Source of the DNA: an uncultured Alphaproteobacteria bacterium | GTDB lineage: Bacteria > Pseudomonadota > Alphaproteobacteria > CAAGCB01 > CAG-977 | NCBI GenBank assembly: GCA_944393745.1 | Contig: CALYBD010000003.1 | Span: 1 to 64,000, forward strand | Length of the DNA: 64,000 nt | Direction of reading: 5' to 3' | Shown here: one piece after another, positions 4,923 to 33,918 of the stretch | Layout: every line of letters begins with the position of its first letter | How positions within the stretch are numbered: the stretch's first letter is position 1 | Program-made: the position numbers and the translations under genes | The notes under the pieces: model-generated | What the model was told of the DNA's origin: nothing | The model's database searches: none | The model's input: only the letters and a program-made list of their open reading frames with translations

Positions 4923-4997
4923 GCGGGTGTAGCTCAGGGGTAGAGCGCAACCTTGCCAAGGTTGATGTCGAGGGTTCAAATCCCTTCGCCCGCTCCA
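4923..4997 (+). tRNA. tRNA-Gly (anticodon GCC)
   Basis: Cloverleaf read by eye. The acceptor stem GCGGGTG pairs with CGCCCGC; the D arm contains AGCTCAGGGGTAGAGC; the anticodon stem CAACC/GGTTG encloses loop TTGCCAA, giving anticodon GCC; the T arm is GAGGG-TTCAAAT-CCCTT. CCA is encoded at 4995-4997. It has its own promoter and is followed at once by a terminator hairpin. The last 20 bases are duplicated downstream at 5140-5159. Confidence 0.97.
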
Positions 4998-5003
4998 ATA
5001 AAA
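4978..5003 (+). repeat. tRNA-Gly 3'-end direct repeat, copy 1
   Basis: The last 20 bases of tRNA-Gly plus six following bases (ATAAAA), 26 in all, recur exactly at 5140-5165. Direct repetition of a tRNA 3' end is what site-specific integration into a tRNA gene leaves behind, but local duplication explains it as well. Confidence 0.85.
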
Positions 5004-5029
5004 AAAGCCGCCAAGAGGCGGTTTTTTTT
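5001..5029 (+). terminator. Intrinsic terminator after tRNA-Gly
   Basis: GCCGCC (5007-5012), loop AAGA, GGCGGT (5017-5022) flanked by A- and T-runs, giving a stem with a long U-tail on the plus strand. A second, near-identical copy lies at 5265-5291. Confidence 0.85.
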
Positions 5030-5057
5030 ATTGGATATAGGGAGGGGCTTGAACCCG
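5003..5057 (+). repeat. Hairpin-plus-tail direct repeat, copy 1
   Basis: A 55-base segment containing the GCCGCC/GGCGGT terminator hairpin followed by TTGGATATAGGGAGGGGC and TTGAACCCG. It recurs exactly 262 bases further on. Read on the minus strand, its right part looks like the 3' end of a tRNA T arm plus CCA (GGGTTCAAGCCCC ... TATCCA), but only three T-stem pairs form, so it is not a tRNA. Confidence 0.85.
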
Positions 5058-5139
5058 AGCAGAGGGTTCGGCCGAAGCGACAGCGCAGGCAACGCCGGAA
5101 CGAAGAGGAGGCGGCCCTTTAGGGCGAGCGGTAGCGAGT

Positions 5140-5165
5140 AAATCCCTTCGCCCGCTCCAATAAAA
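5140..5165 (+). repeat. tRNA-Gly 3'-end direct repeat, copy 2
   Basis: Exact second copy of 4978-5003, without the rest of a tRNA. Copy starts are 162 bases apart. The intervening DNA has no open frame of note, so if this is an attachment-site pair the element between has been lost. Confidence 0.85.
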
Positions 5166-5205
5166 CACGACAAAAACGCCCTATGACGGGCGTTTTTTGT
5201 GTTTT
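5162..5205 (+). terminator. Strong intrinsic hairpin with U-tail
   Basis: CGCCC (5177-5181), loop TATGAC, GGGCG (5188-5192) extended by A-runs on the left and T-runs on the right, so it could end transcription in both directions. It directly follows the second copy of the tRNA 3' end, just as the first copy is followed by a terminator. Confidence 0.75.
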
Positions 5206-5264
5206 ATCAATGAGCCTTAACAAGGCAAGGCGGTAGCCGCGGCCGCATTTAGGCGGAATTGGGG

Positions 5265-5319
5265 AAAAGCCGCCAAGAGGCGGTTTTTTTTATTGGATAT
5301 AGGGAGGGGCTTGAACCCG
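5265..5319 (+). repeat. Hairpin-plus-tail direct repeat, copy 2
   Basis: Exact second copy of 5003-5057. In copy 1 the element is followed within seven bases by GGGTTCGGCCGAAGCGA (5064-5080). In copy 2 the same 17 bases appear only at 5424-5440, after about 105 bases of extra, hairpin-forming sequence. Confidence 0.85.
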
Positions 5320-5429
5320 TTTGCATAAATTCTTAATTTCACTCGTCCTGCCGTCCTCGTTCAATAACGAATTTATGGTCTTGCAGACAAAAACAGAAAT
5401 TTGTTCTGTTTTTGCTTAGCGACGGGTTC
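5313..5429. other. Multi-branched inverted-repeat structure (possible RNA)
   Basis: Three nested perfect inverted repeats: outer GAACCCGT (5313-5320) with ACGGGTTC (5422-5429); inner CATAAATTC (5324-5332) with GAATTTATG (5369-5377); inner CAAAAACAGAA (5388-5398) with TTCTGTTTTTG (5404-5414). Together they describe an outer stem closing two hairpins. Copy 1 of the repeat has only a short loop at this place (5051-5069). Whether it is transcribed cannot be seen. Confidence 0.55.
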
Positions 5430-5560
5430 GGCCGAAGCGAATTAAATTTCGTCTTTTTCGTTCTTTTGCGTCCGATGCTTTTGGCAGTAACGAAGTTTTT
5501 TCACATCCTGCCGGCAGATTGTTGAAAACGGAACTTTAATCTGCCGTGCGAAAAAAACGG

Positions 5561-33204: not shown

Positions 33205-33281
33205 GCGCCCATAGCTCAACTGGATAGAGCATCTGACTACGGATCAGAAGGCTGAGAGTTCGAATCTTTCTGGGCGCGCCA
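33205..33281 (+). tRNA. tRNA-Arg (anticodon ACG)
   Basis: Acceptor stem GCGCCCA pairs with TGGGCGC; D arm AGCTCAACTGGATAGAGC; anticodon stem TCTGA/TCAGA around loop CTACGGA gives anticodon ACG (read as ICG after deamination); T arm with TTCGAAT. CCA is encoded at 33279-33281. A terminator and then an IS element follow. Confidence 0.97.
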
Positions 33282-33312: not shown

Positions 33313-33374
33313 GTAATATGGAAAACCACGTGCTAGGCACGTGGTTCGGGAGAGCTTATAGCTATGCCCAAAAA

Positions 33375-33431
33375 AACTCCTTAGGTAAATTCAGATTGCG
33401 GTCTGGCAACTGCGACTGAAACTAAGGAGTT
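33375..33431 (+). promoter_or_regulatory. Hairpin sequestering the transposase ribosome-binding site
   Basis: AACTCCTTAG (33375-33384) is the exact reverse complement of CTAAGGAGTT (33422-33431), which contains the Shine-Dalgarno AAGGAG of tnpA. Folding would hide the site, a known way by which IS200 keeps transposase translation low. Confidence 0.7.
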
Positions 33432-33435
33432 AAAG

Positions 33436-33918
33436 ATGAATGACATAAAGACATTATCACATACAGCATGGAACTGCAAATATCACATAGTATTCGCGCC
33501 GAAATATCGCCGCAAAGTATTTTATGGCGAAAAACGCTATGAGACAGGAAAAATACTCAAAGAACTGTGTGGATGGAAAGGAATAACGATAATAGAGGCG
33601 GAAGTATGTCCGGATCATGTGCATATGTTGGTTGAGATACCGCCGAAAATGAGTGTGTCGAGTTTTGTGGGCTTTCTGAAAGGTAAAAGCAGTTTGATGG
33701 TTTACGAACGGTGGAGCAATATAAAATTTAAATATCGTAACAGAGAATTCTGGTGCAAGGGATACTATGTGGACACTGCCGGTAAGAATGCCCATAAGAT
33801 TGCGGAATACATACAAAATCAGTTGAAAGAAGATGCTCTGTGTCTGACCCGTTTACGGGTAGCAAGTAACAAAATACTCCCGCCAGACCGTTGTACGCCG
33901 TTTAGGCGTCGCCAGTAG
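33436..33918 (+). CDS. tnpA: IS200-type Y1 transposase TnpA
   Basis: 160-residue HUH endonuclease that cuts and rejoins single-stranded IS ends. The start WNCKYHIVFAPKYRR is the IS200 signature; the HUH motif is HVH at 61-63 (CPDHVHMLV); KGKSSLMVYE and REFWCKGYYVDT follow; the catalytic Tyr is most likely Y125 in AEYIQNQL. Residues from about 133 (CLTRLRVASNK...) do not match the C-terminus I expect for IS200 transposases and read into the right end of the element, so the tail may be altered. The catalytic part looks whole. Confidence 0.92.
   Translation: MNDIKTLSHTAWNCKYHIVFAPKYRRKVFYGEKRYETGKILKELCGWKGITIIEAEVCPDHVHMLVEIPPKMSVSSFVGFLKGKSSLMVYERWSNIKFKYRNREFWCKGYYVDTAGKNAHKIAEYIQNQLKEDALCLTRLRVASNKILPPDRCTPFRRRQ

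Follow-up and report, generated by a model that had tools for sequence, protein, structure and literature searches.

Two copies of a modular sequence lie behind a tRNA-Gly(gcc) gene in the 64,000-nucleotide stretch of DNA analysed here (the window), raising the question of what kind of element occupies such a position. An initial sequence-only reading had described a conserved frame with an exchangeable loop, and proposed a small mobile or RNA-based family. We arrive at a different interpretation, with a probability of roughly 0.7: the window holds an RtT-like tRNA-tail repeat in two units, the first complete and the second truncated. Each such unit is the 3' end of the upstream tRNA in copied form, with the T-loop opened by a conserved core and an inverted T-arm copy placed ahead. 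The general order of parts is a partial inverted T-arm copy, the T-stem 5' strand, the core, and an exact tRNA 3' end with CCA, the core being GC-rich, 60-80 nt long and standing in place of the T-loop, and whole units measure about 160-180 bp.

The host gene of the repeat, tRNA-Gly(gcc), spans 4923-4997 on the + strand (ARAGORN; Rfam tRNA, 68.6 bits). Between it and unit 1 sits a terminator-like hairpin (4998-5031, +) composed of GCCGCC-AAGA-GGCGG with an A/T-extended stem and a T-run; the fold of 4998-5035 reaches z = -5.2, and a consensus terminator scan lists the hairpin on the - strand only. Next comes segment C (5031-5056, +), an inverted repeat of the tRNA T-arm and acceptor end that is imperfect (76% complementary) and terminates in CTTGAACCC. 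A short spacer separates it from segment E (5062-5069, +), which carries GAGGG, the T-stem 5' strand, followed by TTC, just as the tRNA does, and was assigned from the sequence and from a match test over 70 tRNA genes. The GC-rich core (5070-5139, +) occupies the T-loop position, as judged from covariation, folding and a match at 5062-5147 (68.3 bits) to R1, a covariance model built from 24 units, three of them from E. coli. In the window the core is drawn as three to four hairpins, with a closing helix pairing GUUCG (5066-5070) and CGAGU (5135-5139); taken alone, this core is as stable as its shuffles (z 0.03). Finally, segment G (5140-5159, +) is a direct repeat of the tRNA-Gly 3' end from T-loop to CCA, exact over 20/20 nt. 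It belongs to the exact 26-nt repeat AAATCCCTTCGCCCGCTCCAATAAAA (4978-5003 and 5140-5165), and since this repeat is the tRNA-Gly 3' end plus the bases that follow it, unit 1 extends to about 5159.

Unit 2 opens with a second copy of the terminator and segment C (5265-5318, +), a direct repeat identical to unit 1, continues with a 105-base stretch (5319-5423, +) that forms the loop between C and E, and finishes with the end of E and the first 11 core bases (5424-5440, +), where it is truncated. The repeats named in the sequence-only reading are indeed there: a 55-base block common to both units (5003-5057 and 5265-5319) and the 17-base end GGGTTCGGCCGAAGCGA (5064-5080 and 5424-5440) are each 100% identical, and the GAACCC/GGGTTC arms enclose 7 bases in unit 1 and 105 in unit 2. 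It overlooked a third exact repeat, the cut-off of unit 2 after 5440 and the piece of another dispersed repeat in the 105-base loop. The idea of a conserved frame with an exchangeable loop is abandoned, as the loop of unit 2 contains a piece of another repeat, and the short loop of unit 1 is the gap between inverted and direct T-arm copies; the real module is a tRNA 3' end with the core in its T-loop. The GAACCC/GGGTTC stem, that is, C paired with E, survives in part as a hairpin: at least seven of eight pairs form in 39 of 70 tRNA genes, and support is only moderate, since 31% also do so with the E of another tRNA.

The piece of another repeat within the unit 2 loop lies in the 3' half and belongs to a dispersed hairpin repeat, CAGACAAAAACAG..CTGTTTTTGCTTAGC (5365-5421 in the window). 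The 105-base loop is partly matched at five further genomic sites, on contigs C48 (two), C33 (two) and C2 (one), the repeat coordinates being G000:C33:28350-28486, C48:8693-8974 and C2:41591-41633, and the same repeat stands in tandem behind tRNA-Asp. Separate from both units is the 97-base element X between them (5166-5262, +), with its own terminator-like hairpin at 5172-5197 followed by ATCAATGAGCCTTAAC..GGCGGAATTG. No second copy of element X occurs in the same genome; similar stretches are found behind the syntenic tRNA-Gly of two relatives, L083 and L085. Among five metagenome-assembled genomes (MAGs) with the syntenic tRNA-Gly, several from rumen, L083 and L084 carry a unit, L081 and L082 have none, and L085 has element X in its place. 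Elsewhere in the window (region 33324-33900, +), an Rfam STnc490 match (63.4 bits) sits right behind tRNA-Arg(acg) (33205-33281). We considered it as a related element and rejected it as unrelated: it is the only such match in the genome and precedes a transposase-like gene, the open frame directly after it resembling an IS200-type transposase.

Further copies had been called for by the sequence-only reading, together with their positions relative to tRNA genes; they exist in the same genome and in relatives, and they sit behind tRNA genes. In the organism's own genome, that of a rumen-type alphaproteobacterium (2.25 Mb, 60 contigs, 40 tRNA matches), we scanned the stretches around 39 distinct tRNA genes for direct 3'-end copies of at least 11 nt within 700 nt. 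Tail copies were recovered behind nine of the 39, namely Lys(ttt), Pro(tgg), Pro(cgg), Ala(ggc), Arg(cct), Val(tac), Met, Ser(gga) and Gly(gcc). In all nine the first tail copy starts 136-163 nt downstream and a core is enclosed, and no bare tail duplicate without a core was seen among the 39 tRNAs scanned. Units stand in tandem behind Met, Ala and Pro(cgg), the window having one full and one truncated unit. Behind tRNA-Ala(ggc), at L055, the tandem units bear tRNA-Ala 3' ends and a different, longer core that the models missed. Decay is also visible: at Gly(ccc) the core is present and the tail decayed, Asn and Asp have truncated remnants (identified by eye), and second units are often truncated or decayed. 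At two loci, L067 (Met) and L097 (Gly of G011), later units have exchanged the part from acceptor end to terminator left arm for unrelated sequence of similar length, with the sequence on both sides kept.

Beyond this genome, R1 at E<=0.01 yielded 72 matches in 11 of the 12 genomes of the family. A tRNA called by ARAGORN less than 700 nt upstream was absent for 27 of the 72; sorted by reading, 16 of these lie near a contig end (within about 265 nt, on the upstream side), seven are a repeat of genome G010, two sit in longer tRNA-Arg fragments, one has its tRNA masked by N and one is an orphan (G011:C11). In G010, one of the 11 genomes, the matches represent a dispersed non-tRNA repeat with a similar core. 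Its seven copies (L114, L124, L158, L159, L160, L162 and L163) have a core of GA-linked hairpins and score about 29-31 bits with R1; such cores may thus occur away from tRNA tails as well. At E<=1e-4 with stricter filters, R1 has matches in 10 genomes among 385 at class level and in 29 among 398 at phylum level, the own genome included in both counts. From these wider searches 38 further loci were taken, the best matches only; 31 have a tRNA on the same strand less than 700 nt upstream, and four of the seven without one are near a contig end. In family f188, a Ser(gga)-type unit recurs near the bacterial small SRP RNA gene (L186, L198, L199, L200, L202 and L205). At L198 the unit is overlapped by RF02902 (AaHKsRNA22), so that the class may have a further entry in Rfam under another name.

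How closely does a unit correspond to the tRNA in front of it? For this comparison, 110 units were assembled, six were dropped with an unparsable segment E, and of the 104 kept 76 have a tRNA, 70 being first units. The corresponding 70 tRNA genes span 20 labels, for example Tyr(gta), Ser(gga), Gln(ttg), Glu(ttc) and Arg(acg), and in 67 the first unit starts 42-85 nt behind the tRNA. The longest exact match between a tail and its own tRNA, 16 nt in the median, exceeds that to any other tRNA in 63 of 70 cases. Analogously, the outer three T-stem bases of segment E agree with the own tRNA at 0.71 and with other tRNAs at 0.36 (highest of 2000 draws, 0.476). Segment C matches the inverted T-stem of its own tRNA at 7.09 of 10 positions and that of others at 5.66, but the own tRNA ranks first alone in just 13 of 70 and shares first place in 22. 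The flanks are matched to the host tRNA; the core, by contrast, is common to different tRNAs and to Alpha- and Gammaproteobacteria. The lineages also differ in how the unit is joined to its gene: a terminator stands between tRNA and unit at 33 of 39 tRNA genes in the own family and at 8 of 31 elsewhere, leaving 23 of 31 outside the family without one.

The shared core was then considered as a folded RNA. RNAalifold on the MAFFT alignment returned the closing helix only, and the structure was therefore named by hand and tested with shuffles and slides; the set of chosen loci, with those of G010 left out, comprises 93. In the unfitted MAFFT alignment, 84.8% of cells are paired, against 29-46% when slid, and 32 both-side changes compare with 13.9 in shuffles. 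Fitting 106 distinct matches to the model gives 89.9% paired cells and 207 both-side changes against 63.9, with compensatory pairs in four helices; the covariation for which the sequence-only reading had asked is accordingly present. The closing helix has the consensus GUUCG:CGARY, and its 3' side varies almost only among letters that keep G-C/G-U or U-A/U-G on the tRNA-sense strand. Over all helices read on that strand, G-U cells outnumber A-C cells by 173 to 67, in a fitted alignment that itself leans toward the tRNA-sense strand. The G-U excess and the closing-helix variation point to an RNA of the tRNA-sense strand, and selection probably acts on its fold.

These features bring the units close to E. 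coli rtT of the tyrT operon (Rfam RF00391, RtT), in which the order of parts is the same and which likewise occurs in tandem behind a tRNA. The RtT model, run on the own genome and 60 relatives, gave 18 matches at E<=0.1 in 6 of 61 genomes, none at or above the gathering score. Intact tRNAs lie just upstream of 14 of these loci, with a unit that matches that tRNA, and the other four are also units by reading (two at contig starts, one behind a tRNA-Ser cut by the contig end and one behind an N-masked tRNA). The window unit has no RtT match at E<=1, and the other units of the genome score 24.4-34.5 bits; the gathering cut-off of 45 bits is reached by no alphaproteobacterial unit tested, ten loci outside the family among them. 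In the reverse direction, R2, a model made from 21 alphaproteobacterial units alone, matches each of the three rtT repeats annotated at the E. coli tyrT locus, as well as all 28 other phylum-level loci given, which had previously been found with R1 and thus with a model containing E. coli rtT. Applied to ten whole genomes chosen by their R1 match, R2 produced eight matches in six genomes, seven of them behind a tRNA, and none in the remaining four. In gammaproteobacterial loci, RtT scores above its cut-off behind Ser(gga), Gln(ttg), Pro(tgg), Lys(ttt) and Ser(cga). A tandem GA motif is described for the first hairpin of RtT (PMC7657543); it occurs in 51 of the 106 distinct units (mean of shuffles, 3.8), and the window unit lacks it in its strict form.

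There are also differences. While rtT shares a transcript with its tRNA without a terminator, the own family mostly has a terminator before the unit, and the alphaproteobacterial units serve many isoacceptors. Because the units score below the RtT cut-off and are preceded by a terminator, we call them RtT-like and do not file them under RF00391; that they are RtT-like tail repeats nevertheless appears highly probable. In Actinobacillus, RtT is reported next to Asn- and Lys-tRNA genes with northern signals (PMC4986893), in passages that describe neither the split of the T-loop nor the fit to each tRNA. A general description of T-loop-split tRNA-tail repeats was not found in the open-licence literature, which is weak evidence of absence. 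BIME-like attenuators have been likened to rtT (PMC2965389), and BIME/REP repeats are also palindromic and intergenic; unlike these, the present units are tied and fitted to tRNA 3' ends. The units are ordinary in so far as they belong beside rtT, and unusual in making rtT a general, tRNA-fitted class.

On the core tree, which has few columns and many open forks, isoacceptor identity requires 26 changes against a shuffled mean of 31.8 (0/300 as low), and genome identity 25 against 26.9 (40/300 as low), with no genome-wise spread. The cores follow the isoacceptor rather than the genome and are thus mostly inherited with the tRNA locus, movement being rare. Of the earlier proposal of a small mobile or RNA-based family, the RNA-like part stands; transposon-type mobility is not supported. 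On two clear within-genome look-alikes, cores nonetheless appear to have moved sometimes between tRNAs: the Lys(ctt) and Val(tac) units of G002 have a 94% common core, their flanks switching at the T-loop to the sequence of the own tRNA, and the Ser(gga) and Lys(ttt) units of G000 have a 91% common core. We envisage a core that would be inherited with its tRNA locus and occasionally copied into the T-loop of another tRNA tail. Recombination or slippage, acting between the identical tRNA ends and terminators, would create arrays and shorten them again. This would account for tandems and truncated copies, and the same process may keep the flanks like the tRNA. The behaviour of rtT as a VNTR in Salmonella (PMC2658671) fits this recombination picture.

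As to function, a processed trailer RNA has been reported for E. coli rtT (PMC4986893 and PMC2965389, both citing Bosl and Kersten 1991). By analogy, the tRNA-sense RNA would fold, and read-on transcription from the tRNA could yield such a trailer. We tentatively put it forward as the working form, slightly on the doubtful side. With a terminator between tRNA and unit, only read-through RNA would carry the unit in the own organism; a trailer RNA fits other lineages, where the terminator is mostly absent, better than the own family, where it is mostly present.

That same terminator, cutting the unit off from its tRNA in the own family, speaks for neutral debris: palindrome-prone tRNA 3' ends and terminators would be duplicated when recombination or template switching occurs, the units would have no function, and their structure would be inherited likeness only. 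Such an origin would also agree with the inverted and direct T-arm copies, as expected from snap-back copying, with the many truncated or decayed second units and with the two of five syntenic relatives that have no unit. It sits poorly with compensatory pairs in four helices, the G-U strand bias, the same design in Alpha- and Gammaproteobacteria and the lack of coreless tail duplicates, and we regard it as rather unlikely.

Less probable still, though worth spelling out, is a core that is itself a mobile T-loop cassette, entering tRNA copies and mobilised either by recombination over short homologies or by a trans-acting enzyme. Such an enzyme-less or trans-mobilised cassette would enter T-loops across Proteobacteria, and host tRNAs would escape through a spare 3' end, carried or created. 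Both look-alike pairs speak for it, above all the G002 flanks that switch at the T-loop, as does the core in every tail copy of the own genome. Two units moreover lie in tRNA-Arg(acg) fragments that are longer and extend as far back as the anticodon arm, so that the core is inside the T-loop of more than a tail. Against this, cores follow the isoacceptor and not the genome, none of ten neighbour proteins tested matches an integrase or recombinase, and gene conversion with short flanks could give the same result.

Integrases that target tRNA genes usually cross over in the T-loop. Integrative elements with an attachment site there (attL/attR), reduced to scars or minimal forms, would thus share the exact duplication of a tRNA 3' end and the junction in the T-loop. 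In the units, however, the T-stem 5' strand, which lies upstream of any T-loop crossover, is duplicated too; they are very short, their structure is conserved, and the same ten neighbour proteins include no integrase, making an integrative origin improbable. Terminator duplication with chance surroundings, suggested by the hairpin within the 55-base block, is rejected, since it leaves the core and the tRNA 3' end copy unexplained, and since units also occur in lineages mostly lacking an intervening terminator; the sequence-only reading was right that more than such a duplication is present.

The RtT-like tail repeat remains the preferred reading, and its consequences reach beyond this locus. 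The units provide a tangible reason why MAG contigs end at tRNA genes, with 16 of 72 family matches near a contig end. Until now, rtT was an oddity of a single E. coli operon, and its function is no more than a suggestion. If the cassette reading were true, E. coli rtT would count as one member of a general T-loop cassette class. If the same design is tailored to about twenty tRNA types across Alpha- and Gammaproteobacteria, the questions of origin (the entry of a core into a T-loop copy), upkeep (why the flanks keep resembling the tRNA they follow) and role can be approached by comparison, with answers available from many lineages.
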